A stretch of 52,036 nt of DNA from Oscillospiraceae bacterium. Lineage in GTDB: Bacteria > Bacillota > Clostridia > Oscillospirales > Ruminococcaceae. Of this stretch, positions 37,819 to 52,036 are shown piece by piece (within the stretch, counting starts at the first letter, position 1; every line of letters starts with the position of its first letter). The notes under the pieces are model-generated. The model searched no databases, had not been told where the DNA came from, and worked only from the letters and a program-made list of their open reading frames with translations. Location of the stretch: contig JAAVIC010000006.1 in NCBI GenBank assembly GCA_014799385.1, positions 1 to 52,036 of the forward strand. Reading direction: 5' to 3'. Position numbers and translations under genes: made by a program.

Positions 37819-38325
37819 ATGAAAAAATCACGTTATATCGCCGTTATGGGGCTTATGCTCGCCCTTGCGTCGGCTTTACAGTTCCTCGAAAGCCTGATTC
37901 CCATACCGCTTCCGCTCGGAGTTAAGGCAGGTATATCGAGCATAGTCGTTATGGTCGTTCTTGTAAAATTCGGTTTTATTTCGGCAATGACGATCGCCGT
38001 GCTCAAAAGCTGCTTTGTCCTTATTACAAGAGGAATGTCGGCTTTTTGTATGTCGGTCAGCGGAGGCGTTCTTTCGGTCGCTGTCATGGGAGCCTTCCTT
38101 GCTGTTTCACGCAAATCGGAAAACGGAACGGGCATACTTCTGATGTCGGTGCTTGGAGGGATATTCCACAATATAGGTCAGCTTGCTGCGGCTTCGGTCT
38201 TTACAGGGAGCATTGTGACGTTTTCATATCTGCCCGTGCTTGTTATCGCGGGCGTTGTTTCGGGAATATTCACGGGAACTGTTTTTAGGCTTATTATGCT
38301 GTATTTATATAATGCCGATTCATAA
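37819..38325 (+). CDS. Gx transporter family protein (heptaprenyl diphosphate synthase component I-like)
   Basis: 168 residues, about five transmembrane helices, SD GGGGGG. Starts MKKSRYIAVMGLMLALASALQFLESLIPIPLPLGVKAGISSIVVMV, an ECF S-component-like fold. It may take up a flavin or quinone-type precursor needed for the redox complex; this is inferred from gene neighbourhood. Confidence 0.85.
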   Translation: MKKSRYIAVMGLMLALASALQFLESLIPIPLPLGVKAGISSIVVMVVLVKFGFISAMTIAVLKSCFVLITRGMSAFCMSVSGGVLSVAVMGAFLAVSRKSENGTGILLMSVLGGIFHNIGQLAAASVFTGSIVTFSYLPVLVIAGVVSGIFTGTVFRLIMLYLYNADS

Positions 38326-38470
38326 TCTGCGTGCCGCGCCTTCAGGCGCGGAGGTTCGGGGGCAACCCTCTTTCCCATCCCCCCCCTTTTTTCCTGTTTC
38401 GTCTTGGGGAAGTTGTACATATCGGCGGCTCGTGATTAGAGCGTTCAATCTAAAACCACGTTTTGGCGAC
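38326..38470 (+). other. Intergenic hairpin and C-rich tract before the rnfC leader
   Basis: GCGCC-TTCA-GGCGC hairpin at about 38337-38350 and a C8-T6 tract near 38380-38396, then AT-rich DNA. Some internal termination between the apbE unit and rnfC is possible. Confidence 0.4.
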
Positions 38471-38545
38471 TCGTGCAAATTGAGAAAGCGAGCGGTGTGC
38501 CGGGTCGCTCATCTGCATGGTTCGCAATTTGCTTTTAAGATAAGG
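38471..38545 (+). repeat. Covarying leader element 1, 5' UTR of rnfC
   Basis: Outer stem GCAAATTG (38475-38482) / CAATTTGC (38525-38532), inner GCGAGCGG / GGGTCGCTC stem, then TTTTAAGATAAGGAG, which is the rnfC ribosome site. Shortest member of the five-copy family (lacks the CAAAG-loop hairpin). Confidence 0.65.
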
Positions 38546-38552
38546 AGAAAAT

Positions 38553-39830
38553 ATGAAGAAACTTAACGGAATAAAGCTGAAACACCGTAAAAATACGGAA
38601 AACAGCGCAACAGTGGACTTTCCGCTGCCCTCAAGGGTGAAGATACCTATGTCGATGAACATGGGCGCGCCGTGTCAGCCGCTTGTAAAGGTCGGTGATG
38701 AGGTAAAGGTCGGTCAGAAAATAGGCGATACAGACGCTCCGTTCAGCGTTCCCGTACACTCGGGCGTTTCGGGCAAGGTAACGGCTGTAAGTGATTATCG
38801 TACCGTCGGCGGCGCGCTCTGCAAGGCTGTGGAGATAGAGACGGACGGTCTTCAGACGGTCTCGGATGACGTAAAACCGCCTGTCATTACGGATAAGGAC
38901 AGCTTTATCAAGGCTGTGCGTGAAAGCGGTTCGTGTGGACTCGGGGGCGCAGGATTCCCTACCCATATAAAACTCAACCCCAAAACTTCAATAGATACGC
39001 TCGTTATCAACGCTGCGGAATGCGAACCCTACATAACTGCCGATTACCGTGAAATGATAGAATGTCCCGATGATGTTATCGGCGGGATAAGGCTCGTCAA
39101 GGAACAGCTTGGTATCAAGAGGTGTAAGCTCGCTGTCGAGGCGAATAAACCCGAGGCTATAAAATGCTTTGAGAAAATGACCGAGGAGGACGATTCAATC
39201 GAGATCGTAACTCTGCCGTCCTCGTATCCTCAAGGTGCGGAAAAGGTGATAATCTACAATTCAACGGGAAGAGTTGTATCGGAGGGACAGCTGCCCGCCG
39301 ATACGGGAGTTATTGTGCTCAACGTCTCTACAGCTGCTTTTTTGTACAGATATGTTCAGACCGGTATGCCCCTCGTCACAAGACGGCTCACCGTTGACGG
39401 AAATGCGGTCGGCGAGCCTAAGAATGTCCGCGCTGTTATCGGTACGTCCTTCCGCGAAATTATGGAATTTTGCAAAACCGATATCGATTCGGTAATAAAG
39501 CTCATCGGCGGCGGTCCTATGATGGGAATGTCCATTCCCGATATGGATATGCCCGTTGTCAAAACATCAAACGCTCTACTTGCCATAAAGACTTATGACG
39601 ACAGAAAAACCTCCTCGTGCATACGCTGCGGGCGCTGCGTAAGAGTCTGTCCTATGGGACTAATGCCCGCGGATATTGACAGAGCTTATAAAATCGGAAA
39701 TATAGACGAGCTGAAGCAGCTTAAGGTAACGCTCTGCATGAACTGCGGAAGCTGCACATATGTTTGTCCGGCTAACAGAAAGCTCGCAGAGACAAATCAG
39801 CTTGCAAAATCTGTTATTCCGAGAAATTAA
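38553..39830 (+). CDS. rnfC: Rnf complex subunit C
   Basis: 425 residues, SD AAGGAG. N-terminal barrel-sandwich domain, NADH/FMN-binding core (GSCGLGGAGFPTHIKL, NAAECEPYITADYREM), and two [4Fe-4S] ferredoxin motifs (CIRCGRCVRVCPMGLMP and CMNCGSCTYVCPANR). RnfC is the NADH-reducing end of the membrane Rnf complex (ferredoxin:NAD+ oxidoreductase coupled to Na+ or H+ export). Confidence 0.97.
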   Translation: MKKLNGIKLKHRKNTENSATVDFPLPSRVKIPMSMNMGAPCQPLVKVGDEVKVGQKIGDTDAPFSVPVHSGVSGKVTAVSDYRTVGGALCKAVEIETDGLQTVSDDVKPPVITDKDSFIKAVRESGSCGLGGAGFPTHIKLNPKTSIDTLVINAAECEPYITADYREMIECPDDVIGGIRLVKEQLGIKRCKLAVEANKPEAIKCFEKMTEEDDSIEIVTLPSSYPQGAEKVIIYNSTGRVVSEGQLPADTGVIVLNVSTAAFLYRYVQTGMPLVTRRLTVDGNAVGEPKNVRAVIGTSFREIMEFCKTDIDSVIKLIGGGPMMGMSIPDMDMPVVKTSNALLAIKTYDDRKTSSCIRCGRCVRVCPMGLMPADIDRAYKIGNIDELKQLKVTLCMNCGSCTYVCPANRKLAETNQLAKSVIPRN

Positions 39831-39843
39831 GGAGGCTCAACAA

Positions 39844-40788
39844 ATGAAAAAACTTATCGTTTCACCGTCTCCGCACGATGAAAACTACATAAAAACATCT
39901 ACAATAATGCTTAATGTCATTATTGCGCTTCTGCCTGCTTTGGCGGCGGGCTGTTATATTTTCGGAATGCGCGCGCTTTTGCTTGCGGTCGTATGCGTCA
40001 CGAGCTGTGTGGTATTCGAGTTCTGCTGCCGAAAACTTATGAAGCGTGACAATACCATCGGCGACCTTTCCGCAGTGGTTACGGGCGTTATTCTCGCAAT
40101 GAACCTGCCTGTTACGCTTCCGCTCTGGATGGCTGTTGTCGGTTCGTTTGTGGCTATCGTCATTGTCAAGCAGCTTTTCGGCGGAATCGGTCAGAACTTC
40201 GCAAACCCCGCTATCACCGCAAGAATAGTCCTTATGCTGTCGTTCCCGACCGCTATGACCAATTGGGTGGTTCCGTTCTTTTATAAGGACGGTATCGATG
40301 TCGTTACGGGTCCTACTCCTCTTGTCAGCGGCAGCGCGTCATATATGGATCTCTTCCTCGGCAATGTCGGCGGATGTCTCGGCGAAACATGCGCTCTGGC
40401 GCTTCTCATCGGAGGTCTTTATCTTGCCGCAAGACGGATAATCTCGCTTGCTGCTCCCGTGGGCTTTATCGGTGCTCTTGCGCTTCTTTCGTTTATCGCC
40501 GGCGATGATCCTCTTTATGCTATTCTTTCGGGCGGAGTATTCCTCGGAGCATTCTTTATGGCTACCGATTATGCGACTACGCCTATCACGACTAAGGGAA
40601 AAATCATATTCGGACTCGGCTGCGGAATCATAACATTTATTATCAGACATTTCGGCTCATATCCCGAGGGAGTTTCGTTCTCGATACTTCTTATGAACGT
40701 GCTTACTCCATATATTGAACAGGTAACACGCACCAAGATATTCGGCGCAGTTACCCTAAAAGGGCGAAAGGAGGATAAGCAGAAATGA
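39844..40788 (+). CDS. rnfD: Rnf complex subunit D
   Basis: 314 residues from ATG 39844 (GGAGG), about ten transmembrane helices. VVTGPTPLVSG fits the region where FMN is bound covalently to Thr in RnfD. Its stop overlaps the rnfG start (ATGA). Confidence 0.95.
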   Translation: MKKLIVSPSPHDENYIKTSTIMLNVIIALLPALAAGCYIFGMRALLLAVVCVTSCVVFEFCCRKLMKRDNTIGDLSAVVTGVILAMNLPVTLPLWMAVVGSFVAIVIVKQLFGGIGQNFANPAITARIVLMLSFPTAMTNWVVPFFYKDGIDVVTGPTPLVSGSASYMDLFLGNVGGCLGETCALALLIGGLYLAARRIISLAAPVGFIGALALLSFIAGDDPLYAILSGGVFLGAFFMATDYATTPITTKGKIIFGLGCGIITFIIRHFGSYPEGVSFSILLMNVLTPYIEQVTRTKIFGAVTLKGRKEDKQK

Positions 40789-41312
40789 AAGATAAGATTC
40801 TTCCGACAATAGTTCTTACTATCATATGCACGGCTGCGGCTCTGCTGCTTGCCTTTGCCCACGAGGTTACAAAGGACAGTATCGCCAATCAAAAGGAGCT
40901 TAAATTCAGCAAAACAGTTGAACAGCTTTTCGGCGACTGCGAAATAAAAATGCTCGATACTAACTTCGGCTGCGATGAGATTAAGAATATCGCGGTGACA
41001 ACGGACGGCAGGACCGCTGTTGAGATAGTTGCCGATGGCTATTCCAAGGGCGGAATTGATGTTCTTATCGGATTCGATGAAAGCGGCGCGGTCTGCGGCA
41101 TAGAATTTGTCGCGCTTGGCGAAACTCCCGGTCTCGGCTCTAAGGTGCGCGACGAGGAATCGTTTCGCAAGCAGTTTATCGGCGCATCGGACGACAGCTA
41201 CAGCTTTGACGCAATCAGCGGAGCGACTTTTTCCTCAAAGGGTATGAAGCACGCGGCTGACACGGCTTTGAGGGTCTACAACGAAAATAAGGAGGCGATA
41301 TTAAATGGCTGA
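40785..41312 (+). CDS. rnfG: Rnf complex subunit G
   Basis: 175 residues: one N-terminal membrane helix (TIVLTIICTAAALLLAF) and an FMN-binding domain with DAISGATFSSKGM, the SGAT flavinylation site used by ApbE. Overlaps rnfE by 8 bp. Confidence 0.96.
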   Translation: MKDKILPTIVLTIICTAAALLLAFAHEVTKDSIANQKELKFSKTVEQLFGDCEIKMLDTNFGCDEIKNIAVTTDGRTAVEIVADGYSKGGIDVLIGFDESGAVCGIEFVALGETPGLGSKVRDEESFRKQFIGASDDSYSFDAISGATFSSKGMKHAADTALRVYNENKEAILNG

Positions 41313-41997
41313 TAAGAAAAGTTCGCTTGGGAAAGAACTTACAAAAGGCATCATAAAGGAAAATCCCACTCTTGTAATGCTCCTCGGAATGTGCCCGACG
41401 CTTGCCGTTACCACTCAGGCAATGAACGGCATAGGTATGGGGCTTGCGACTACATTTGTACTTCTCGGCTCGAATATCGTTATCTCACTTCTGAGAAATG
41501 TTATCCCCGATAAGGTTCGTATACCGTCATTTATCGTAATTATCGCGAGCTTTGTAACGCTTATAGGATTTCTCCTTGAGGGCTTTTTACCGTCACTTTA
41601 TGACAGCCTCGGTATATACCTCACCCTTATCACGGTAAACTGCATTATATTCGGACGCGCGGAGATGTTTGCAAGCAAAAACGGCGTTGCGGCGTCTATA
41701 TGCGATGCTTTGGGAATGGGTATCGGCTTTACTCTTGCGCTTTTCCTCATGGGCTCTGTACGTGAGATCATTGGCTCGGGAAAGTGGTTCGGCATGGATA
41801 TTCCCGTTCTCAGCTCTAATCCGATGTTGCTGTTCATAATGCCGGCGGGCGGATTCTTCACCCTTGGAATGATAATCGCCCTCGTAAATAAGCTCTCACA
41901 CAAGAAACCTCCGCAGGAGCTTGAATGCGGCGGAGGCTGCAAAGGCTGCCCGAATGCGGGAAGCTGTAATGGCGGAGAGGTCGGTGAAGACGAATGA
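41305..41997 (+). CDS. rnfE: Rnf complex subunit E
   Basis: 230 residues, six transmembrane helices. It shares the RnfA/E fold (LGMCPTLAVTTQAMNGIGMG, GIYLTLITVNCIIFGRAEMFA). The C-terminal tail carries a Cys cluster (CGGGCKGCPNAGSC) that is not part of the basic fold. Overlaps rnfA (ATGA). Confidence 0.95.
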   Translation: MADKKSSLGKELTKGIIKENPTLVMLLGMCPTLAVTTQAMNGIGMGLATTFVLLGSNIVISLLRNVIPDKVRIPSFIVIIASFVTLIGFLLEGFLPSLYDSLGIYLTLITVNCIIFGRAEMFASKNGVAASICDALGMGIGFTLALFLMGSVREIIGSGKWFGMDIPVLSSNPMLLFIMPAGGFFTLGMIIALVNKLSHKKPPQELECGGGCKGCPNAGSCNGGEVGEDE

Positions 41998-42572
41998 AAA
42001 GCTTAATGATAATATTACTTGCGGCTATGCTCACCGATAACTTCGTTCTCTCGAAGTTTATGGGTATATGTCCTTTCCTGGGAGTTTCAAAAAAGCTCAA
42101 TAGCGCAACGGGAATGGGTATTTCCGTAACGTTTGTAATGATATGCGCCACGCTCGTTACATACCCGATACATTATGGAATACTCGTCCCCAACGGACTT
42201 GAATACTTCGATACGGTTCTGTTCATTCTTGTTATCGCCTTGTTCGTTCAGCTTGTTGAAACGATGATAAAAAAATGCATTCCGTCACTTTATAAGTCTC
42301 TCGGCGTATATTTGCCGCTCATCACAACTAACTGCGCTGTGCTCGGAGTTACGGTGCTTAATATCGATAACGGATACAGCTTTGTTCAATCGATAGTAAA
42401 CGCTCTCGGCGCGGGTCTCGGATTTATGCTTTCACTTGTTATTTTCTCGGGTGTGCGCAAAAAGCTCGAATACGCGGATATTCCCGAGACATTCAAGGGA
42501 GTTCCCGCTACTCTCATTGCGGCTTCGATCGTTTCGATTAGCTTTATGGGCTTTTCGGGACTGTTTAGTTAA
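41994..42572 (+). CDS. rnfA: Rnf complex subunit A
   Basis: 192 residues, six transmembrane helices, homologous to RnfE in inverted topology: DNFVLSKFMGICPFLGVSKKLNSATGMG, GVYLPLITTNCAVLGV. The Cys residues in these two motifs hold the intramembrane [2Fe-2S] cluster together with RnfE. Confidence 0.96.
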   Translation: MKSLMIILLAAMLTDNFVLSKFMGICPFLGVSKKLNSATGMGISVTFVMICATLVTYPIHYGILVPNGLEYFDTVLFILVIALFVQLVETMIKKCIPSLYKSLGVYLPLITTNCAVLGVTVLNIDNGYSFVQSIVNALGAGLGFMLSLVIFSGVRKKLEYADIPETFKGVPATLIAASIVSISFMGFSGLFS

Positions 42573-42586
42573 GGGGGGAGGACGTT

Positions 42587-43378
42587 ATGACTTATATTAT
42601 CCCCGCGCTCGTTCTCGGAATATGCGGTATTCTTGCGGGCATTCTTCTGACTGTTGCCGCTAAGATTTTTCATGTTGAGGTCGATGAGCGCATCGAGAAA
42701 ATTGGAGCCGCGCTTCCTCAGGCTAACTGCGGTGCTTGCGGATATGCCGGCTGCGCGGACTACGCGTCTGCTATCGTGAACAGCGGCGCGGAAACCAATC
42801 TCTGCCGCCCCGGCGGAGCGGACGCTGCCGAAAAAATCGCCGAGATTTTAGGCGGAGAGGCTGCCGAGGTAATCCCCATGACTGCTGTCGTTCACTGTAA
42901 CGGCGACTGCAACGCCACGGGAACTGCTTTCGACTTTGACGGAGTTCAGTCTTGCAAGGCGGTCAAGCGTTTCTACGGCGGTACGGGACTTTGCAAGTAC
43001 GGCTGTATCGGTCTCGGAGACTGCGTTTCGGTCTGCGAGCATAACGCAATCAAGGTCGTGAACGGCGCAGCAAAGGTGATTCCATCGCTCTGTGCCGCTT
43101 GCGGAAAGTGCGCAAATGTCTGTCCTAATTCGCTCATCTCGATAAAGCCGCTGGCTTCGCATATCGACGTACTCTGTTCATCGGCGGATAACGGAAAAGC
43201 TACAAAGCTAAACTGCAAAAACGGCTGTATCGGCTGTAAGATATGCGAAAAGAGGTGTCCGAACGGCGCGATAAAGGTCGAAAACTTCCATGCCTCGATA
43301 AATTATGATCTCTGTACAAACTGCGGAGAGTGCATGGCTTCCTGTCCTGTTAAGGTTATTCATTCTTGTGAAAAATAA
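42587..43378 (+). CDS. rnfB: Rnf complex subunit B
   Basis: 263 residues: N-terminal anchor helix, a four-Cys Fe-S domain (ALPQANCGACGYAGCADYASAI...CRPGG), then ferredoxin-like clusters (CKYGCIGLGDCVSVC, CAACGKCANVCPN, CKNGCIGCKICEKRCPN, CTNCGECMASCPV). It takes electrons from reduced ferredoxin. Last gene of the operon, followed by a strong terminator. Confidence 0.96.
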   Translation: MTYIIPALVLGICGILAGILLTVAAKIFHVEVDERIEKIGAALPQANCGACGYAGCADYASAIVNSGAETNLCRPGGADAAEKIAEILGGEAAEVIPMTAVVHCNGDCNATGTAFDFDGVQSCKAVKRFYGGTGLCKYGCIGLGDCVSVCEHNAIKVVNGAAKVIPSLCAACGKCANVCPNSLISIKPLASHIDVLCSSADNGKATKLNCKNGCIGCKICEKRCPNGAIKVENFHASINYDLCTNCGECMASCPVKVIHSCEK

Positions 43379-43380
43379 TT

Positions 43381-43427
43381 AAGGCAACCCCGCGCAAAGA
43401 TCATACTTTACGCGGGGTTGCCTTTAC
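43381..43427 (+). terminator. Terminator of the rnf operon
   Basis: AAGGCAACCCCGCG (43381-43394) / CGCGGGGTTGCCTT (43411-43424), then T. Confidence 0.9.
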
Positions 43428-43503
43428 ATCTGCACGAAATCCACACATAGTTTTTAGTGATTTTCAACAAACGCAAAATCTGTTTATAATTATTTACAAT
43501 CTA

Positions 43504-43532
43504 TTGACAATCGCGGAAATTTGTGGTATAAT
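43504..43532 (+). promoter_or_regulatory. leuS: leuS promoter
   Basis: TTGACA (43504-43509), 17-bp spacer, TGTGG then TATAAT (43527-43532). The leader to the ATG is about 235 nt. Confidence 0.85.
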
Positions 43533-43561
43533 AAGCATAAACCTGTCGGAGCGAATCCGTT

Positions 43562-43605
43562 GCGCCGAAAAATCCAAAACCGCCTTTGGGTTGCGGTTTA
43601 GGCGC
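43562..43605 (+). other. Nested hairpin in the leuS leader
   Basis: GCGCC (43562-43566) / GGCGC (43601-43605) encloses AAACCGC (43577-43583) / GCGGTTT (43593-43599). It lies between the promoter and the covarying leader element. No T-box signature (AGGGTGG...) is present. Confidence 0.5.
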
Positions 43606-43630
43606 GTTATAACCTCAAGCAAACTTTTGG

Positions 43631-43764
43631 TGATTAGTGCAAATTCAAAACGCGAGCGGCGCGTAACACCACAAAGTGGTGTTACGGGTCGCTCGGCGAG
43701 TGCAAATGAAATCCGCAAAGCGGATTTCATTTGCACGATTTTGGATTTGCTTTTTAGAAAGGAA
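43631..43764 (+). repeat. Covarying leader element 2, 5' UTR of leuS
   Basis: Outer stem GCAAATTCAAAA (43639-43650) / TTTTGGATTTGC (43739-43750), one G-U pair. Inner GAGCGG...CGCTC arm with an extra GTAACACCAC-AAA hairpin (43662-43684), and a 16-bp hairpin GTGCAAATGAAATCCG with loop CAAAG (43700-43736). It leads into TTTTTAGAAAGGA, the ribosome site of leuS. Confidence 0.75.
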
Positions 43765-43773
43765 CAATGACAT

Positions 43774-46197
43774 ATGAAATACGATTTTGCCGCCATTGAA
43801 AGCAAATGGCAGACCTATTGGGACGAGCACCGCACATTCCATGTGGAGAATGACTTCACAAAGCCAAAGTACTACGCACTGGTGGAGTTTCCGTATCCGT
43901 CGGGCGACGGACTTCACGTCGGTCACCCGCGCCCGTATACCGCGATGGATATTGTCGCGAGAAAACGCCGTATGCAGGGCTATAACGTTCTTTTCCCGAT
44001 GGGCTGGGACGCGTTCGGTCTGCCCACCGAGAACTACGCGATAAAGAACAAAATCCACCCCGCAATCGTCACGGAGCGCAACGTCAACCGTTTCCGCAGC
44101 CAGCTCAAGATGTTGGGAATGTCGTTCGACTGGCAGCGCGAGGTAAACACCACCGACCCGAACTACTTCAAGTGGACACAGTGGATATTCCTCAAGCTGT
44201 TTAACGCGGGATTGGCTTACAAAAAGGAAATGAACGTAAACTGGTGTACGCAGTGCAAGGTCGTTCTCGCGAATGAAGAGGTCGTGAACGGAACTTGCGA
44301 ACGCTGTCACGGAGAGGTAATCCACAAGGTAAAGAATCAGTGGATGCTTAAAATCACCGACTACGCGCAAAAGCTCCTTGACGACTTGGATTCCGTGGAC
44401 TATTTCGAGAAGATAAAGACTGCTCAGGTAAACTGGATCGGACGCTCCACGGGCGCGGAGGTTACGTTCAAGACTACTCTCGGAGATGAACTGCTGATTT
44501 ACACCACTCGCCCCGACACGCTGTTCGGCGCGACTTATATGGTAATTTCCCCCGAGCACCCGCTTATCAACACTTGGGCGGACAAGCTGACGAATATGGA
44601 CGCTGTTCGTGAGTATCAAGCGGCGGCAGCGAAAAAATCCGACTTTGACCGCACCGAAATGAACAAGGACAAAACAGGCGTCAAGCTGGACGGCGTTATG
44701 GCAGTCAATCCCGTCAACGGTCGCGAGATTCCGATTTTCATCTCGGATTATGTGCTGATGGGCTACGGCACGGGCGCGATTATGGCTGTTCCCGCGCACG
44801 ATACCCGCGACTGGGAGTTCGCGAAAAAGTTCGATCTGCCGATTATAGAGGTTGTAAAGGGCGGGGAAGATGTTCAAAAGGAAGCGTTCACCGACTGCGC
44901 AACCGGAGTTCTCACCAACTCTGACTTCCTTGACGGTCTGTCCGTAGAGGACGCGAAAGTTAAAATCAAAGAATGGATCACCGAAAAGGGAATCGGTCGC
45001 GAAAAGGTCAACTTCAAGCTCCGCGATTGGGTGTTCAGCCGCCAGAGATACTGGGGCGAGCCGATCCCTGTGGTTTATTGTGAAAAGTGCGGTTGGGTCG
45101 GACTTCCTGAAAGCGAGCTGCCGCTGACTCTCCCTGATGTGGAGAGCTATATGCCCACCGACAACGGTGAAAGCCCGCTTTCCACGCTGGAGAGCTTTAT
45201 CAACACCACCTGCCCGAAGTGCGGCGGCGCGGCAAAGCGCGAAACCGACACAATGCCGCAGTGGGCGGGTTCGAGCTGGTATTTCCTGCGCTACACCGAC
45301 CCCACCAACGACAAGGAGCTTGCAAGCAAGGAGGCTCTGAAATACTGGCTGCCCGTGGATTGGTACAACGGCGGTATGGAGCATACCACGCTGCATTTGC
45401 TGTACAGCCGTTTCTGGCACAAGTTCCTGTACGATGAGGGCATTGTTTCCTGTAAAGAGCCGTATGCAAAGCGCACCTCCCACGGAATGATTCTCGGCAA
45501 AGACCCTCAAAACCCCGGAAAGTTCTGCAAGATGTCAAAGTCCTTACACAACGTTGTGAATCCCGATGAGGTGGTTCGCGATTTCGGCGCGGATACAATG
45601 CGCCTGTATGAGATGTTCGTGGGCGATTTCGAGAAAGCCGCGCCGTGGCAAGAAGAGGGAATCAAGGGAGTAAAGCGTTTCCTGGAGCGCGTCTGGGGAA
45701 TGTCCGAGAATCTTAAGGACGGCGAGGAGTATTCGGACGCTCTGCGTTCGGCAATGCACAAGACCATCAAAAAGGTTTCGGAGAACATCGAGAGCCTGAA
45801 GTTCAACACCGCCATCGCTGCGATGATGGCTCTGCTGAATGACGCGGACAACGCGGGCGGATTCAACCGCGCGGAGTTCCGCACGCTGCTGATCCTGCTT
45901 GATCCGTTCGCGCCGCATATCGCGTCCGAGCTGTTTGAAAGGCTGTACGGAGAGATGGTTCACGAGCAGAAGTGGGCTGAATATGACGAGGCACTCTGCG
46001 CGGATTCCACCGTGGAGCTTGCGGTTCAGGTAAACGGAAAGGTGAAGGCGCGCTTCAACGCTCCCGTTGATTCCGATTCCGAAACGCTTATCTCGATGGC
46101 TCTGGAGCTGCCCGAAGTCCAAAAAGCAATTGACGGAAAGACGATAATCAAGAAAATCGCAGTTCCCAATAAACTGGTGAACATTGTTGTGAAATAA
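43774..46197 (+). CDS. leuS: Leucyl-tRNA synthetase
   Basis: 807 residues, normal bacterial length. HIGH-type motif in [25 protein letters not shown] motif in [18 protein letters not shown]1 editing domain with [21 protein letters not shown], Cys-X2-Cys pairs in the zinc module ([17 protein letters not shown]), and a C-terminal anticodon domain. It charges tRNA-Leu, one copy of which (CAG) lies at 11079. Confidence 0.98.
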
Positions 46198-46209
46198 CAA
46201 AAAGCTGTT

Positions 46210-46239
46210 AGCCCCCTCAGTTTGGAGGGGGCTTTATTT
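46210..46239 (+). terminator. leuS terminator
   Basis: AGCCCCCTC (46210-46218) / GAGGGGGCT (46225-46233), then TTATTT. Confidence 0.85.
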
Positions 46240-46309
46240 GTATTTAACATTATGGCACGCATCACTTTATCCAACAGTGAAAACGCGTAATCAAAAATCA
46301 CACAATATT

Positions 46310-46377
46310 GGAATCGGGATTCCAAAGGGGCATTGCCCCTTTGGCAGGGTGTGTGGGGGGACGGAGTCCCCCACACC
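46310..46377. repeat. Array of three adjoining hairpins (REP-like)
   Basis: GGAATC-GGATTCC (46310-46323), CCAAAGGGGC/GCCCCTTTGG (46322-46344), and a GGTGTG-TGGGGGGAC / GTCCCCCA-CACC stem (46348-46377). It ends 3 nt before the spoIIP stop and may also stop transcription from both sides. Confidence 0.65.
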
Positions 46378-46380
46378 AAA

Positions 46381-47532
46381 TTACTGCAATTCTAAAATCG
46401 AATCCGCGAGAATGTTTCCGATAAGCTCTCCGGTGTAGACCGCCTCATCAAGCGTATTCGCCTGACTTCCGACCTCTATCAGCAGCGAACCGGGGGAGAT
46501 GTGCTGGTTGTAGTTGCGGTAGTCAAACAGCACCGCCCGTGCAAGTCCCGGATACGCGGCTTCGGCGGCGCGCTGAACCAGACACGCGGTCTTGAAGTTC
46601 TCCATATAATTCGGAAGGTCAAGCTCGTTTTTGTCATCACAACCCGAGATTATCATAAACTGCGCCGCGCTTTTTCCGTTCACGGTGACTGCGGGGGCAA
46701 TCGGTGTGCCGTCCGAGGCGGCGATTCCGTCACGGTGAATGTCCAATACCAGCTTTATGCTCGGATATTTCGCGAGAACGGCTTCCACCGTGTCGGCGGA
46801 GCGGTAATAAGCGCCTGTGTACATCGGATAATCGTGAACCGTACAATCGTGAACCGAGGCGATTCCGCGCTCGGAAAGCGCATTGCATATCGCGTCACCG
46901 ACCGCCGTCATATTTCGCGAGCAATCGCGCGAACGGTCGGGGCAGTCCTCATCGTACCAATCGACGTGAGGAAAATAGCTCTCGGTTGTGTGGGTATGGT
47001 AAATCAGCACCTGGGGCAGCTCTGCGGGATTTTCGACCTTTCCGAGCGGCGGCAGGGATTTCGCGGCTTCGGCAAGCGTTTCGCACGTTACATCGGTGAG
47101 ATTCTGGACTTGCGCTCCGCCGTCCAGAGTTACATAATTTGTCGCAGTGGACTTCCCGAACGCATACCGCGAGATTTCCCCGGTGTGGGTGGTAAATTCT
47201 GAGTAATCGGTGTCGTCCGTGTCCGTACTCCGATTCAGGGTGATTATCTTTCCGACAGCTTTCGGCGGCTCTTCGGGTTGTGAAGCGGTCGAAACATCGG
47301 ATCGTGTCGTTTCCACTGACGATGTGGATGTTGTGGAACTTGTTGATTCGGCGGACGATGCGGTGCTTGATGAATCAACTGATTCGGTTGATTCGGACGG
47401 TTCTTCGTATGTAACCCCCGCCGCCAGGTATGCCGTGCCGCGAACGGCTTGTCCGGCAATCGTGTCGGAACAGCTCAAAATCGCGGTGAAAATTGCCGCC
47501 GCTCCGATAGTAACAGATTTTAATTTTCCCAT
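46381..47532 (-). CDS. spoIIP: Stage II sporulation protein P
   Basis: 383 residues: N-terminal signal anchor, a Ser/Thr/Glu-rich linker (about 45-95), then the SpoIIP amidase/endopeptidase domain with LIYHTHTTESYFP (His), KLVLDIHRDGI and SLLIEVGSQANTLDEA (Glu), the zinc-amidase pattern. It degrades septal peptidoglycan with SpoIID during engulfment. The gene implies a spore-former. Preceded by GGAGAG. Confidence 0.93.
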   Translation of the reverse strand: MGKLKSVTIGAAAIFTAILSCSDTIAGQAVRGTAYLAAGVTYEEPSESTESVDSSSTASSAESTSSTTSTSSVETTRSDVSTASQPEEPPKAVGKIITLNRSTDTDDTDYSEFTTHTGEISRYAFGKSTATNYVTLDGGAQVQNLTDVTCETLAEAAKSLPPLGKVENPAELPQVLIYHTHTTESYFPHVDWYDEDCPDRSRDCSRNMTAVGDAICNALSERGIASVHDCTVHDYPMYTGAYYRSADTVEAVLAKYPSIKLVLDIHRDGIAASDGTPIAPAVTVNGKSAAQFMIISGCDDKNELDLPNYMENFKTACLVQRAAEAAYPGLARAVLFDYRNYNQHISPGSLLIEVGSQANTLDEAVYTGELIGNILADSILELQ

Positions 47533-47587
47533 ATTTTCACTCTCCTTTGTTGAATTATATTCACGCGAAAGTAAAAATATTCCAAAA

Positions 47588-47623
47588 CATTAATGCCCCT
47601 CGGTTTCCCAAGGGGCATTAATG
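47588..47623. terminator. Hairpin upstream of spoIIP
   Basis: CATTAATGCCCCT (47588-47600) / AGGGGCATTAATG (47611-47623). It probably ends the upstream minus-strand cluster. Confidence 0.65.
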
Positions 47624-47680
47624 TGGTTTGGTTGGTAATTATATGAAAAGAATGGTTGACTAATTAATACGTGATTCTTT

Positions 47681-47717
47681 GATTACATAACCGATTTTAA
47701 CAAATCGCTATGTAATC
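47681..47717 (-). terminator. Hairpin after the DUF6882-like gene
   Basis: GATTACATAACCGATTT / AAATCGCTATGTAATC (47681-47697, 47702-47717), one mismatch. Confidence 0.55.
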
Positions 47718-47748
47718 CGTATGTTTTTCACGTGAAATCTTCGTGAAA

Positions 47749-48453
47749 TCAACTGATCTCCACGCCGGTCGCTCTGTGCATACCGTCATCAACAAGCTCC
47801 AGATCCACATGGATCTTGCCCTCGCCGAAGTCGCAGTCCAACGCAGTATCGGTCGCGGTGAACTCATAGCCGTTCTGATACAGCATTCCCGCGAAAATCA
47901 ACAAATGGTCGCATTCCATACCCTGAATCATCTGCATAGCGTCACTTGCAATATCGGGAACGCTTGTCGGCGCGAACGCCTCATCGGGTATGTCCTTCAC
48001 TTGGAGAAAAATCGCGCCTTTGCCAGTCGGGCAGCGGTAGTATGCCACGTTCTCCTCTGAAAGCGCGGTAATGATCATCGAGAGGTTGTGACCGTTGCGT
48101 GTTTCGTCCAATTCGTAGCTTGGTACGGTGAACTCGTCACACTCGGAGAGAGCCTCGCGCGCTTGGATTCCCGCGGCGGTCTGTTCCTCGGTCCAGCCGT
48201 TATGCGGATTCGCCCAGCCCCAAAGCCAGGTGTCCGAAACATCGCTCTCCGAGCCGATAATCGAACACCCGAACGTCTTGTCGCCGAATGTAATCGTCAT
48301 CTCGTCGAGGTCGACGCTCCAGTCACTGTCGCCGATAACCTGACCGAACGCGCGCTGACGCGCAACTCCTGTTCCGATTGTCAAGTCAGCAAGACTGTAA
48401 ATGTCGCTGAAATCCACCTTAATCGGAATGTTTAAAATTGATTTCTTACTCAT
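47749..48453 (-). CDS. DUF6882-like protein
   Basis: 234 residues from ATG 48453 (AAGGAGG). Soluble and acidic. SESDVSDTWLWGWANPHNGWTEE is the recognisable motif, which I recall from DUF6882 proteins found among immunity and toxin-system neighbours. Biochemical role unknown. It lies behind covarying leader element 3. The reading upstream to 48570 runs through that leader and is rejected. Confidence 0.65.
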   Translation of the reverse strand: MSKKSILNIPIKVDFSDIYSLADLTIGTGVARQRAFGQVIGDSDWSVDLDEMTITFGDKTFGCSIIGSESDVSDTWLWGWANPHNGWTEEQTAAGIQAREALSECDEFTVPSYELDETRNGHNLSMIITALSEENVAYYRCPTGKGAIFLQVKDIPDEAFAPTSVPDIASDAMQMIQGMECDHLLIFAGMLYQNGYEFTATDTALDCDFGEGKIHVDLELVDDGMHRATGVEIS

Positions 48454-48463
48454 AAATATCCTC

Positions 48464-48580
48464 CTTATTTTAAATAGCAAATCCGAAACCGCACAGATGA
48501 AATCCGCTTTGCGGATTTCGTCTGTGCTTGCTGAGCGGGGCACATCACCGCTCGCATTTCGGATTTGCACGAGTAACCAG
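48464..48580 (-). repeat. Covarying leader element 3
   Basis: In gene orientation: outer stem GCAAATCCGAAA (48568-48557) / TTTCGGATTTGC (48488-48477), perfect 12 bp. Inner GAGCGG / CCGCTC arm. Hairpin 48491-48527, 16 bp with one G-U pair, whose GAAATCCG-CAAAG-CGGATTTC core is shared with leuS. It ends in TATTTAAAATAAGGAGG, the SD of the DUF6882-like gene. Confidence 0.75.
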
Positions 48581-48621
48581 TAACTTACCGTGAGTTATAA
48601 TGTGTTAAACCCTCAGCGTTT

Positions 48622-49122
48622 TCACTTAATCGAGCAAATGTGCCACTTATCGGGTTCGTCCTCATAGCCACTGTAAACCGCGTCTACGAGCCATTTACCC
48701 TCCACATTCTTGATAACGAATTTGTCCATCATATCCAGACCCTCGTGGTAATGCGTTATCACAACGGCTCTTGCGGCGGTCTTCATAATAAAATTCGCCG
48801 TACATTCCCCGTCAATATAAGCATACCTTGCGGGGTTGCCGAATGAACCGCCGCCGAGTCCCCTTTGACGGAACTTATCGGTAATATGCGGCGGTATAAG
48901 CTCGCGAAGCTGCTGCTTGTACTCTGCCCACAGCTCGTTTTCGCCCGGACCTACAATATGATCGGGAATACCGAGCTTCTTCTTGTTTTTTCGAAGCTCT
49001 TCACTGCGCTTATAAGTGGTCGTTTCAACCTCATTGATTTTCAGCAGAAAATCAAACAGAAATCCGCAGATTTCGTCCTGCATACCCTTGAACTTATCGT
49101 TCGCTTCGTTAATGATCTCCAT
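48622..49122 (-). CDS. NTF2-like immunity-type protein, paralogue A
   Basis: 166 residues from ATG 49122 (AAAAGGAG): MEIINEANDKFKGMQDEICGFLFDFLLKINEVE, GGGSFGNPARYAYIDGECTANFIMKTAARAVVITHY, KFVIKNVEGKWLVDAVYSGYED. Helical start, beta sheet and 'KWLVD' end resemble NTF2-fold immunity proteins. It shares start, middle (YGYIDEECEATF) and end (DKWLLDEVYYR) with the protein at 51416-51913, so the two are paralogues. Confidence 0.65.
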   Translation of the reverse strand: MEIINEANDKFKGMQDEICGFLFDFLLKINEVETTTYKRSEELRKNKKKLGIPDHIVGPGENELWAEYKQQLRELIPPHITDKFRQRGLGGGSFGNPARYAYIDGECTANFIMKTAARAVVITHYHEGLDMMDKFVIKNVEGKWLVDAVYSGYEDEPDKWHICSIK

Positions 49123-49136
49123 AATAATTCTCCTTT

Positions 49137-50504
49137 TCAATTCAGATAGTTTTCCAGTGCTTCCATAGCACTCTCGCCAAGTTTTTCCGAAACAAATTCG
49201 CTGCCGCAGAGAATATAACTGCGGAACACATAAACAGTCGCCTCTTTGCTTCTTCCCATTCTGCCGAGAATGATCGCCGTGCCGAGAAGAACCATACCGT
49301 TTTTGCTTCCGTTCTTGCAGCCGTATGCTTTCTTTATGCAGTCATACGCGTTTTCAAGCTCGTCCTTGTCGAGATAAATATTTGCTTTGAGGAAATAAAG
49401 ATATGCCGCTTCCTCATAAACCTCCGGTTCTTCCGTGAACACCTTAAAAGCTGCGTCAATTCCTTTCAGTCTTTCCTCGGCGTCGCCGTCTGCGTGTTTT
49501 CCGTAGGCATTCAGTGCCTTCTCGCCGAGTTTTTTGCGCTCCTTGTCCTTCTTCTCGGATTCAAGGAACTCGATTTCCGACTTGCCATGACGACTTTCCC
49601 GGATTTCCTCTAAGGTATAAGCTTTGAATTTTCCGCTTGCAATACAATCATCAATGAATTTCTGTTTTTCCAGAACCTCATCGGTTATTTCGAGATTTGT
49701 TTCCTGCTCCAGAAATGCGCGGTATTCCTCCGGAAAAGGCTCCTTGCGCTTTCTTGAGGTATCCCTGTCGGCAAACAGGAAGCATCTTCTCGCCGCTTCC
49801 ATATACCCTAACTCATACAATATCTTTCCCGCAAGTATATTTGTTTTTACAAGGTTAGGCATCTTTTTGCGCTCATCGACAACATACAGCAACCCCGACA
49901 ATCTCAGCGCGGTGCGGTATGCCTTGTGCTCATAACAGAGCCGAAGTATTTCATACACGATATTATAAGCTGCTTTGTCCTGCCATTTCGGGACTTCCAG
50001 GTTTCTCCATTGATCCAACGGCGCGGCGAAATCCTTCAGCAGTTCTTCATAATCGTCCTCCGTCAATTCGCCAAGCTCGTCCGTTATCATTCCCATAATG
50101 TCCGCCACATTTTCATTGGCACTCTCTTTGCTGAGCGGAATAAAGGCTTTGTTGCTGTTCGCTACATCGCCCTTGCTGGACTCCTTGATTTCACGTGTCA
50201 CAAACTCTCTGCAAATTTCCAAATCGCCGTTGTCAAAAGCAATTTCCGCGCTTAAACCCCATACTCGGTAAGCCGGTCTTCCCTCTCTTGCGAGCTGCAA
50301 AACGGCTATTGCACGCGCAAAATCATATATCCGATACTTGTTGCTGTACCGTCCGAGGGTCTCCGCTTCAACATTCACTATGTCATATGACTTTGTGCTT
50401 CTATTGGAATTGTAGTTGTTAATATGCGCTTCTATTTCTTCTTGAACATTCGTTGGTATAAAATCGTCCTCCGTAAACGGTATATACATATTCGCTTTTT
50501 CCAT
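49137..50504 (-). CDS. Helical-repeat (TPR-like) protein
   Basis: 455 residues, all helical, no signal peptide. TPR-like pairs are visible (AIAVLQLAREGRPAYRVWGLSAEIAFDNGDLEICREFV; AYLYFLKANIYLDKDELENAYDCIKKAYG). The middle is strongly charged (SEKKDKERKKLGEKAL). Probably a protein-binding scaffold. It lies in a minus-strand run with the two NTF2-like genes; 14 bp separate it from paralogue A. Confidence 0.65.
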   Translation of the reverse strand: MEKANMYIPFTEDDFIPTNVQEEIEAHINNYNSNRSTKSYDIVNVEAETLGRYSNKYRIYDFARAIAVLQLAREGRPAYRVWGLSAEIAFDNGDLEICREFVTREIKESSKGDVANSNKAFIPLSKESANENVADIMGMITDELGELTEDDYEELLKDFAAPLDQWRNLEVPKWQDKAAYNIVYEILRLCYEHKAYRTALRLSGLLYVVDERKKMPNLVKTNILAGKILYELGYMEAARRCFLFADRDTSRKRKEPFPEEYRAFLEQETNLEITDEVLEKQKFIDDCIASGKFKAYTLEEIRESRHGKSEIEFLESEKKDKERKKLGEKALNAYGKHADGDAEERLKGIDAAFKVFTEEPEVYEEAAYLYFLKANIYLDKDELENAYDCIKKAYGCKNGSKNGMVLLGTAIILGRMGRSKEATVYVFRSYILCGSEFVSEKLGESAMEALENYLN

Positions 50505-50536
50505 TTACAACACCCTGCCTTTCTTAATGCTCCAAC

Positions 50537-51160
50537 TTATATATTTGCGATTCTGTGCTTCAGCATCTCCGCCTTAAAGTCCTCCGGGTTCATAGTCACC
50601 TCTACGACCCTTTCATCATACGGAACATCTTTTCCGTTACGAACCCGATAGGTATACCTTACAAACAGCCTATCGCAGTCGTGAATATCCACTATTTTAC
50701 TGCACCAGCCTCTCATGGAAAAACCGCCCGGTTGGGATTTAAGCTCAACCCAATCCTCGGAACAACTTTCACAATTGAACGCTATCGCGACCTCGTTATT
50801 TTCTATTTCGGCGGGCAGACGATACGCTATTTCTTCATTTACTCCCCACATATGATTGAGTATACAATCACGGGCAAATTGACCGATAGAACGTCCTTCC
50901 TCCTCTTTGGCTTTTAACTCCTTGGCAACCGCCTCCGTGGTCTTGCTTGTATCGTTATACACAACATAGAAATCGACCTCATACAAATCATATATGTCGC
51001 CGGATCCAATATCTCTTGCGTAACTGTCCAGATAATCCAGATAGTCATAAAAAGAATCGTCTGTTTTCTCCTTAAATTGAGTGACGAAACATTGTTTTTT
51101 CGTAAAAATATTAAGTGCGTCCCTGTATACGCTGCCGTTATACATTACAAATCTATACAT
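50537..51160 (-). CDS. Uncharacterised protein of the immunity-like cluster
   Basis: 207 residues from ATG 51160 (AAGGGG). Starts MYRFVMYNGSVYRDALNIFTKKQCFV; ends MNPEDFKAEMLKHRIANI; five Cys residues, including FNCESCSEDW. No family recognised. Preceded by covarying leader element 4. Confidence 0.6.
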   Translation of the reverse strand: MYRFVMYNGSVYRDALNIFTKKQCFVTQFKEKTDDSFYDYLDYLDSYARDIGSGDIYDLYEVDFYVVYNDTSKTTEAVAKELKAKEEEGRSIGQFARDCILNHMWGVNEEIAYRLPAEIENNEVAIAFNCESCSEDWVELKSQPGGFSMRGWCSKIVDIHDCDRLFVRYTYRVRNGKDVPYDERVVEVTMNPEDFKAEMLKHRIANI

Positions 51161-51169
51161 AAATTACCC

Positions 51170-51300
51170 CTTATTTTAATAGCAAATTTGGCACCGCTGC
51201 AAACGAAAATTGCTTTGCAATTTTCGTTTGCGCTAGCTCGCCGCGAAAGCTCCGCTGCGCTGCGCCTCCGCGGCGGCTTGCCAAATTTGCACGAATCACC
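51170..51300 (-). repeat. Covarying leader element 4
   Basis: Outer stem GCAAATTTGGCA (51290-51279) / TGCCAAATTTGC (51193-51182), perfect 12 bp. Inner GCCGCCGCG / CGCGGCG arm. 14-bp hairpin GCAAACGAAAATTG (51199-51231) with the same CAAAG loop (minus strand). It ends in TATTAAAATAAGGGG, the SD region of the 51160 gene. Confidence 0.75.
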
Positions 51301-51415
51301 GATAGCTTGTCCCAAATCAGACGCGCTATGATTGCAACCCGATAAGTTGCCTGAGTTTACAACACGCTAAAACCTCGCTCTAAACAGTGGATTATGGTTA
51401 TAATCCGAATAGCTG

Positions 51416-51913
51416 TCACTTGATTCCCGTCACCGACCAGCTGCTGCTAGACCCCATACGATAGTAAACCTCGTCCAAAAGCCATTTATCGTCAATCAGA
51501 CGATAAACGAACTTATACTGATTCGAGATTTTTGCCGTATCGCGTATTTCAACCGCCGCGCGTTCGGCGTTCCGCATAGAGAACGTAGCCTCGCACTCTT
51601 CGTCAATATATCCGTAGGTCTGCGGCTCCCTCCATGAGAGACCGTAGCCTCGTTTGAGCAGCTTTTCGGAGAACCGCGCGGGAGTTACGATCTTGCGCAT
51701 TTCGTCCCGTACATAATCCGACAACGCTTCGTCCTCATCGGTATACACCGACTGTGAAATACCTTTCTTTTCTTTATCAGCCTCAATCTCATCTTCGCGT
51801 TTTACCGCTTCCTTTTCCAGAGCGTTTATTTCGCGCAGCAACTCAAACAGCGGCATGCAAATCTCGTCCTGAAAATCCTTATACTTTTCGCTTGCTTTAT
51901 TAATAATCTCCAT
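51416..51913 (-). CDS. NTF2-like immunity-type protein, paralogue B
   Basis: 165 residues from ATG 51913 (AAGGAG): MEIINKASEKYKDFQDEICMPLFELLREINALE, WREPQTYGYIDEECEATFSMRNAERAAVEIRD, YRLIDDKWLLDEVYYRM. Clearly homologous to 48622-49122. A small soluble protein with NTF2-like pattern. No toxin gene lies next to it inside the window. Confidence 0.65.
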   Translation of the reverse strand: MEIINKASEKYKDFQDEICMPLFELLREINALEKEAVKREDEIEADKEKKGISQSVYTDEDEALSDYVRDEMRKIVTPARFSEKLLKRGYGLSWREPQTYGYIDEECEATFSMRNAERAAVEIRDTAKISNQYKFVYRLIDDKWLLDEVYYRMGSSSSWSVTGIK

Positions 51914-51920
51914 AAATAAC

Positions 51921-52036
51921 TCCTTATTTTAATAAAAATCCAAAATTTCCGAACGCCTGGGCTCCGCTTCGCTTCGCCAGCGTTCGGAAACCGGTTAAAA
52001 TTTGCGAAGCAAATTTTGACTCTTTTTGGATTTTGT
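51921..52036 (-). repeat. Covarying leader element 5 (cut by window end)
   Basis: Outer stem AAAATCCAAAA (52034-52024) / TTTTGGATTTT (51945-51935), perfect. Hairpin AAAATTTGC-TTC-GCAAATTTT (51997-52017). Arm TTTCCGAACGC...GCGTTCGGAAA (51946-51990). Then TTATTAAAATAAGGAG before the ATG at 51913. Confidence 0.7.

Follow-up and report, generated by a model that had tools for sequence, protein, structure and literature searches.

A dispersed three-way-junction repeat set in sense against the translation-initiation sites of unrelated genes in an Oscillospiraceae bacterium

The nearest known kind of element to the one that we describe here is the small interspersed repeat, as exemplified by BOX and bcr. 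Our element is a folded leader repeat first noticed in a stretch of 52,036 nucleotides of an Oscillospiraceae bacterium (contig JAAVIC010000006.1 of assembly GCA_014799385.1; hereafter the window), where it lies directly upstream of rnfC, leuS and three further genes, and it is set apart from those families by its abutment on the initiation site and by the exchange of its helices. In the available parts of the published descriptions, BOX of Streptococcus pneumoniae (boxA–boxBn–boxC) is modular, extends the 5′ or 3′ regions of operons, in some cases with short open reading frames (ORFs), is often co-transcribed and has been proposed to be moved in trans (PMC3049150). The leader repeat shares with BOX a modular build, a variable number of repeats and a strong fold; unlike BOX, as far as descriptions can set the two apart, its right end abuts the initiation site in sense and whole hairpins are exchanged. 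Among bcr1–bcr18 of the Bacillus cereus group, bcr10 and bcr18 are reported in the available part of their account to have conserved secondary structure and to be transcribed in 5′ untranslated regions (UTRs), bcr3 to be associated with a longer mRNA half-life, and about 40–51% of copies to lie within an mRNA at various positions (PMC3446304). These are likewise dispersed repeats of a Firmicute, and that part of the account, compared by description only, reports no restriction to start sites.

Miniature inverted-repeat transposable elements (MITEs) resemble the leader repeat in being short, folded, multi-copy and patchy in what is available of a review (PMC10969869) from which the terms ribosome, Shine–Dalgarno, start codon and orientation are absent. 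For the leader repeat, no terminal inverted repeats of the whole element were found, no target-site duplication was established and searches for three protein families gave no parental insertion sequence; its junction cassette does have inverted ends (GCAAAT/ATTTGC). The REP/RAYT systems, which are defined by a Y1 transposase, are similarly built of palindromic repeats scattered over the genome, which may function as folded single strands, whereas the host genome of the leader repeat is without a Y1 transposase. A search of openly licensed papers found no published account of this leader-repeat family, which does not imply its absence from print.

Anatomy, copy number and placement

The genome of the bacterium (2.69 Mb in 33 contigs, 99.9% complete) contains at least 150 copies, approximately one per 18 kb, by a covariance model (R1) built from 62 aligned full-length copies of this genome, an alignment that left out three copies of more than 150 nt, partial copies and copies below 40 bits. 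The leuS element as a BLAST query gave 59 matches in the same genome, some of which are reverse-strand shadows; such opposite-strand shadow matches were left out of the counts, and positions were counted over 149 copies after removal of one duplicate locus copy. An ATG-started ORF begins 2–14 nt after the 3′ end of 120 of the 149 copies (two of these starts, L023:2993 and L163:8606, are spurious ORFs within a following copy), compared with 171 of 3000 positions drawn at random and, in antisense, 2 of 149. Automatic classification of the 3′ neighbours assigned 116 copies to a Shine–Dalgarno sequence (SD) and ATG, 14 to a start codon within 14 nt that had no clear SD or was not ATG, 14 to a further copy or tail and 5 to other contexts; on reading, two of these five showed a doubled tail and then SD and ATG, two ran directly into an ATG, and the last ended at the edge of the fetched stretch with GGAG and ATG visible. 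On reading, we found none of the 149 copies anywhere other than against a start codon, a further copy or the limit of the DNA fetched. The earlier note, made from the letters of the window alone, had described a dispersed, sense-oriented leader module attached to the ribosome site ahead of unrelated genes, and these counts support that description; insertion at random positions and orientations, which it had named as the contrary outcome, is clearly not what the genome contains.

In its main type, the repeat is a three-way junction with an outer stem (P1) and two arms (P2 and P3), preceded by imperfect units of ~41 bp. The cassette measures 76 to about 220 bp among the copies seen, and up to about 350 bp when the units and a left-end module are included. 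P1 is formed by GCAAAT and a six-base class sequence, paired with the complement ahead of ATTTGC (classes in the 62 copies: TCAAAA 26, CCGAAA 13, TGAGAA 6, TGCGAA 6, CCAAAA 5, TCGAAA 3 and three singletons). P2 starts with XGC, in which X pairs with X′ of GCX′ (columns 16–69: C-G 27, T-A 20, A-T 12, T-G 1), and continues through GAGCG/CGCTC into a variable arm; a nearly invariant A separates it from P3, a near-perfect palindrome. The tail reads YATYWARATAA, with GGAG next in most copies. Upstream, the ~41-bp units contain GTTATAAY and gave 153 matches (E ≤ 0.1) in the fetched DNA of this genome. Of these, 135 lie on the strand of a listed junction and upstream of it, and many of the remaining 18 come before partial or unlisted copies. 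The left-end module gave 39 matches, 34 upstream of a junction and 25 of these 34 at a distance of about 27 or 68 nt. Some copies stand in tandem, and others are truncated remnants. We regard this anatomy, together with the copy number, sense orientation and abutment on initiation sites, as established.

A second inner layout (type II), in which the motif AAAGAGTC...CCGGTT stands within a similar outer stem, is represented by the fifth copy of the window and at two further places, one in this genome (L031, 2494–2619) and one in a relative (L226 of G032, 1702–1835). A locus of the sister species introduced below (L081, 6014–6144) is type II-like on reading, without the exact motif. Type II is thus a second cassette type that is present in two genomes by motif and perhaps in a third. 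Several elements have another palindromic repeat (GCGACCGCC...GGCGGTCGC and variants) nested in their P2 (Table 1), so that the junction is itself an insertion target.

Table 1. Positions of the leader repeat, its parts and associated features (window coordinates unless a locus is named)
Feature	Position	Strand	Details
~41-bp unit (GCGTTCAATCTAAAACCACG-TTTTGGCGACTCGTG) of the rnfC copy	38426..38471	+	read from sequence, unit family
Copy 1: shortened junction, tail GATAAGGAG, 5 nt ahead of rnfC ATG (38553)	38472..38547	+	R1 45.4 bits
leuS sigma-70-type promoter TTGACA-17-TATAAT, upstream of the insert	43504..43532	+	12/12 matches
Two ~41-bp units and a partial unit (GTTATAACC...CTTTTGGTGATTAG) of the leuS copy	43546..43635	+	
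Copy 2: full junction between leuS promoter and SD	43636..43756	+	R1 139.4 bits (match 43636-43765)
leuS SD GAAAGGA, as in relatives without the element	43757..43763	+	leuS ATG at 43774
Copy 3: shortened P2, tail AAATAAGGAG	48461..48571	-	R1 103.8 bits, RNA fold z -8.5
Copy 4: P1 class GCAAATTTGGCA, tail AAATAAGGGG, gene ATG at 51160	51167..51293	-	R1 108.1 bits, RNA fold z -7.3
Upstream units and left-end module of copy 4	51294..51419	-	left-end module match E 3.1e-12
Copy 5: type II (P1 AAAATCCAAAA, AGAGTC hairpin, CCGGTT hairpin), tail AAATAAGGAG, gene ATG at 51913	51920..52034	-	
Palindromic repeat nested in P2	L019:4193-4392, L022:1151-1338, L017:5752-5950, L145:1710-1894, L151:12929		

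All five elements of the window lie where the earlier note had placed them and in the sense of their genes; R1 matches four of them (E ≤ 0.001) and the fifth is type II, whereas the first 38 kb of the window is without an R1 match. The note's finer claims held less uniformly. Each outer stem is in general complementary to its own partner, except in the truncated rnfC copy, in which the left strand of P1 is of the TTGAGAA class and the right strand of the TTGCGAA class, with one mismatch; a CAAAG loop ascribed to four copies is found in three (those ahead of leuS and of the genes at 48453 and 51160); and the SD can lie outside the element, as leuS keeps the GAAAGGA of its element-free relatives and several copies run straight into the ATG. 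Relative to 200 shuffles each, the RNA fold z-score is −1.1 for copy 1 (−4.3 as DNA), −12.8 for copy 2 (P1 at 43639–43650/43739–43750) and −4.2 for copy 5 (51922–52034), in addition to the values given in Table 1. The gene after copy 1 is rnfC by Pfam RnfC_N, and that after copy 3 (ATG at 48453) encodes a DUF6882 protein (Pfam). The left end of copy 4 contains a promoter-like GTGACA-17-CATAAT at 51419–51391 (10/12 matches, from a scan without excess over shuffles).

Two further repeats were observed near these copies. A GC-rich dispersed repeat at 38330–38415 (GCGCCTTCAGGCGCGGAGG ... CCCATCCCCCCC...TTTTTTCCTGT...GGGGAAGTTG), also seen close ahead of leader elements in L013, L015 and L009, appears from its letters to be a further repeat family. 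Downstream of leuS, 46310–46380 consists of adjoining palindromes (CCAAAGGGGCATTGCCCCTTTGG and GGGGGACGGAGTCCCCC), a type that seems to be repeated in this genome, with similar letters upstream of the L141 element.

The genes served are functionally unrelated. In a random sample of 30 out of 128 downstream genes (27 with a Pfam match at E ≤ 1e-5), we found, for example, DHFR, phosphofructokinase, LeuRS, a MetRS-type synthetase, glycan phosphorylases, OMP decarboxylase and a response regulator. Scanned against Rfam (4227 families), the window contains nothing at the gathering cut-off apart from tRNA, and the window and eight loci together only tRNA and small SRP (signal recognition particle) RNA; the two matches at E ≤ 1 in 38401–52036 (30.8 and 28.5 bits, below cut-offs of 60 and 50) lie antisense to copies 3 and 4. 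The earlier note had not recognised the element as a known riboswitch, and these scans agree in showing no known Rfam family. These results also bear on whether the element could be the regulatory RNA of a large regulon (that is, a riboswitch or protein-binding leader through which more than 100 genes are controlled jointly). The conserved architecture, with its nearly invariant adenosine and conserved tail, the sense orientation beside the SD and the conservation of position would all suit such an RNA, but unrelated targets, arms that are variable, unlike an aptamer, the exchange of whole junctions at orthologous loci (see below), the lack of any Rfam counterpart and an SD region that is unpaired in the minimum-energy folds of all five window copies (which end at or just before the SD) make a joint regulon quite improbable in our judgement, although the P3 arm of the leuS copy does score as terminator-like (see below).

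Hairpin exchange and turnover among relatives

Pairing within the R1 alignment holds for 96.4% of cells, whereas shuffles reach 81.5% and slid controls no more than 46%, and 37 of the 49 pairs have changed on both sides, a number reached in 0 of 500 shuffles; across nine genomes, in an alignment fitted to the model, 46 of 49 pairs are doubly changed (again 0 of 500 shuffles). Covariation far beyond that of shuffles is therefore present. Between copies, double Watson–Crick changes make up 62–68% of changed pairs at every level of divergence, single G-U steps 9–12% and broken pairs 18–27%. G-U cells are rare in P1 (6/744) and P3 (11/809) and less so in P2 (60/1215), and identical P2 or P3 cores are found with different P1 classes. 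As double changes prevail at all distances and cores are shared across P1 classes, the stems seem to change through the exchange of whole hairpins in one step and not through stepwise compensation; the proposal that compensated change is by itself the mark of selection on structure is accordingly not supported.

Comparison with a sister species (the metagenome-assembled genome (MAG) CAMWMN01, an uncultured Clostridia with a coding identity of about 92%) is consistent with such exchange in place. At 50 orthologous sites, some of which involve copies cut by the end of a locus (L119, L106:14), the first 300 coding bases have a median identity of 0.92 and the junctions one of 0.63, compared with 0.62 for random pairs between the two genomes and 0.64 for pairs within our genome. 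Junction identity reaches at least 0.84 at only seven of these sites, the P1 class differs at 34, and at four sites the junction is swapped between flanks that are 0.75–0.87 identical. Within our genome, the best paralogue of a junction has a median identity of 0.85 and up to 0.99.

Presence also differs between the two species. Nine element-bearing genes of our genome have no R1 match in the sister: five have plain starts without a trace of the element (L093, L098, L100, L091 and L123), three keep a unit or tail without the junction, and one was misassigned; where the sister has a plain start, the copy in our genome includes the upstream units as well. A junction-less form was seen in four places, three reading GGTGA|TTTGCYATT (L138 and L034 in our genome, L104 in the sister) and the fourth GACGA|TTTGCCATT (L100 in the sister), and would fit slippage at a 3–4-bp repeat across the base of the hairpin. 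The site was retained in 48 of 57 cases, an estimate biased upward because the sister loci were fetched by the pattern of the right end of the element (one of the 57 was misassigned through a spurious ORF in a tandem copy), and in 14 of 20 cases without the genes that carry the search pattern, an estimate that errs the other way.

Beyond this pair, the family is restricted to one genus. R1 matched 11 of 61 genomes (our own included), all of that genus, and a second model (R2; 58 copies from nine genomes) matched 12 of 37 genomes of the genus, nine of them with at least 10 matches, and none of 146 other genomes of the order; the 61- and 146-genome searches used stricter filters, as did all those over more than 40 genomes. 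In relatives, the architecture is unchanged but P1 has other sequences (for example, GAAATTTCAAAAA and AAAATTTGCGAA). The exact pattern of the right end was found in 52 stretches of a collection of species, a search that may not cover records close to our genome. Of these stretches, CAMWMN01 accounts for 48, two uncultured Clostridia/Clostridiales MAGs for one each and unrelated taxa for the remaining two, roughly as many as we would expect by chance. Among viral contigs, the same pattern was found in 0 stretches. On a LeuS tree (30 rows, with seven carriers and without carriers G023 and G025), presence requires five changes (bootstrap 4–6; shuffled mean 6.5, with 44 of 500 shuffles as low) and is therefore patchy.

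The leuS leader illustrates this variation. Its start was readable in 25 relatives of the genus, 17 of which have a TTGAC..TATAAT-type promoter and an SD with no element, compared with about 215 bp between promoter and GAAAGGA in the window; G020 and G030 have diverged versions of the element, one genome has no promoter in the stretch read, two have unrelated inserts and three have longer leaders (in G019, G014 and G029, at L175, L179 and L180), which we take to resemble a T-box. The unrelated inserts, in G007 (L169) and G017 (L191), are folded and stand between promoter and SD, and the 5′ leader may therefore be a hot spot for several element families. We consider presence or absence relative to the sister species, cassette replacement, helix exchange, the junction-less scars and the taxonomic restriction to be established.

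Alternatively, the element may be a selfish, MITE-like repeat without host function that lands at random and of which purifying selection spares only the sense copies at initiation sites. Patchy presence in the genus (five changes for seven positive rows on the LeuS tree), tandem copies, truncated remnants and repeats nested in P2, differences between sister species, and tandem arrays away from gene starts in relatives all agree with such a repeat. Random insertion should nevertheless leave copies elsewhere in intergenic regions or 5′ UTRs, where the reading of our genome found 0 of 149, and the structure is kept despite replacement of its sequence, as is the element itself at 14 of 20 orthologous sites across about 8% coding divergence. 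We therefore hold a purely selfish repeat to be unlikely.

RNA and DNA forms of the hairpins

Hairpin loops in the RNA folds are mostly tri-loops (241 of 282 in our genome, 117 of 142 in the sister species and neighbouring loci, and 49 of 60 in other members of the genus), GNRA tetraloops number 8, 2 and 0 in the same three sets, and TTCG is absent (0). Perfect tri-loops are closed by C-G in 205 of 227 cases, and GNA tri-loops are found 106 times on the coding strand versus 11 times on the other. Tri-loops are less frequent outside the elements (10 of 53 terminator-like hairpins and 148 of 448 other perfect hairpins). At the P2 and P3 apices of the 149 copies, tri-loops occur in both orientations on one stem (AAA/TTT in six stems, GAA/TTC in three and GCA/TGC in two), as if hairpin tips invert.

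This tri-loop bias hints at a folded coding strand of DNA, while being compatible with RNA as well, and DNA mini-hairpins with GNA loops are exceptionally stable according to the available part of one report (PMC4686876). The purine GNA/AAA tri-loops might accordingly mark a folded single-stranded DNA (ssDNA) substrate for a putative recombinase that would work at R-loops or at replication forks close to gene starts, for which the loop counts, the d(GNA) stability and the flips of tri-loops on one stem would all speak. The same loops would, however, serve RNA too, and the genome is without a Y1 transposase. No enzyme acting on these hairpins is known to us. As an explanation of the element, we regard the ssDNA substrate as doubtful; it can equally be the mechanism of exchange within the explanation favoured below, so that the two overlap.

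Signals of transcription are less distinctive. The upstream unit was considered as a promoter and rejected, as GTTATAAY looks like a −10 element but the −35 match is poor on reading; a promoter-like pair is present in only 12 of 39 left-end modules, and canonical promoters were found by regular expression within 450 nt upstream in 20 of 144 cases. A scan of 38000–52036 gave no excess of promoter-like sites (18 versus 15.6 in shuffles) or of terminator-like sites (19 versus 16.8 expected), the latter including the P3 arm of the leuS copy.

Possible origin and role of the repeat

On balance, we lean, with some reserve, towards a non-autonomous, genus-restricted, hairpin-exchanging repeat of translation-initiation sites that acts as an mRNA leader. 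The repeat would enter, or be kept, in sense only and right at the initiation site of unrelated genes, perhaps by targeted insertion rather than by selection alone. The resident cassette would then be replaced time and again from other copies, one hairpin or an entire junction at once, in exchanges bounded by the conserved GCAAAT/ATTTGC ends that may proceed by gene conversion or hairpin recombination. Occasionally, a near-exact deletion spanning the hairpin base would remove it and leave GGTGATTTGCYATT. Once transcribed, the cassette may form a rigid 5′-leader domain, the closing stem of which ends some 10–25 nt ahead of the start codon, and it is expected to protect the message at its 5′ end and to hold the SD beside a fixed stem; such a leader would set mRNA stability and translation without sensing a ligand.

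Several observations weigh against this explanation. In other species of the genus, an ORF starts 4–10 nt after the end of only 24 of 46 fetched copies, so that the strict placement seen in our genome is looser there, and 15 of the 46 have no ORF start in range, many being followed by a further unit or copy. The differences from the sister species are not polarised between gain in one and clean loss in the other, and the trace-free sister sites are too diverged to fix a target-site duplication, none of which was established. PF01797 (Y1, REP/RAYT type) has 0 matches in our 99.9%-complete genome; a Y1 transposase is present in 8 of 37 genomes of the genus, among them only G006 and G030 of the nine multi-copy carriers. 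Reverse transcriptase (PF00078), a candidate for RNA-mediated insertion, was rejected because it does not track the element (three stretches in our genome and 13 of 37 genomes, with none in carriers G006, G022, G023, G030 and G032), and PF00665 (rve integrase) has two matches in our genome. Searches of these three families thus tied no transposase to the element; of the mobile module suggested by the earlier note, presence or absence between sisters, patchy presence in the genus and cassette replacement stand, and a mobilising enzyme does not. The GNA tri-loops could indicate that the element is more important when folded as DNA than as RNA. The gain in SD accessibility is modest (median probability of being unpaired 0.64, n = 116, versus 0.52 in control genes, n = 109), and a translation effect is thus weakly supported.

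A more specific proposal, which we put forward only tentatively, is a mobile element that itself targets initiation sites (perhaps by way of mRNA, of an R-loop or of the coding strand in folded form) and diversifies by hairpin swaps. If it is correct, more than 100 genes of one genome would have an exchangeable 5′ leader, the fold of which is kept while the sequence is free, and the family would represent a leader cassette of a new kind, whether selfish or domesticated.

The exchange of hairpins carries a warning for the study of RNA structure, namely that very strong covariation can arise from the exchange of whole hairpins and need not record stepwise compensatory selection. If the favoured explanation is true, a repeat family has settled in sense at more than 100 gene starts of one genome with its end against the ribosome site, which would open the questions of how a whole genome tolerates, or makes use of, structured inserts at its start sites and by what process they are placed there.

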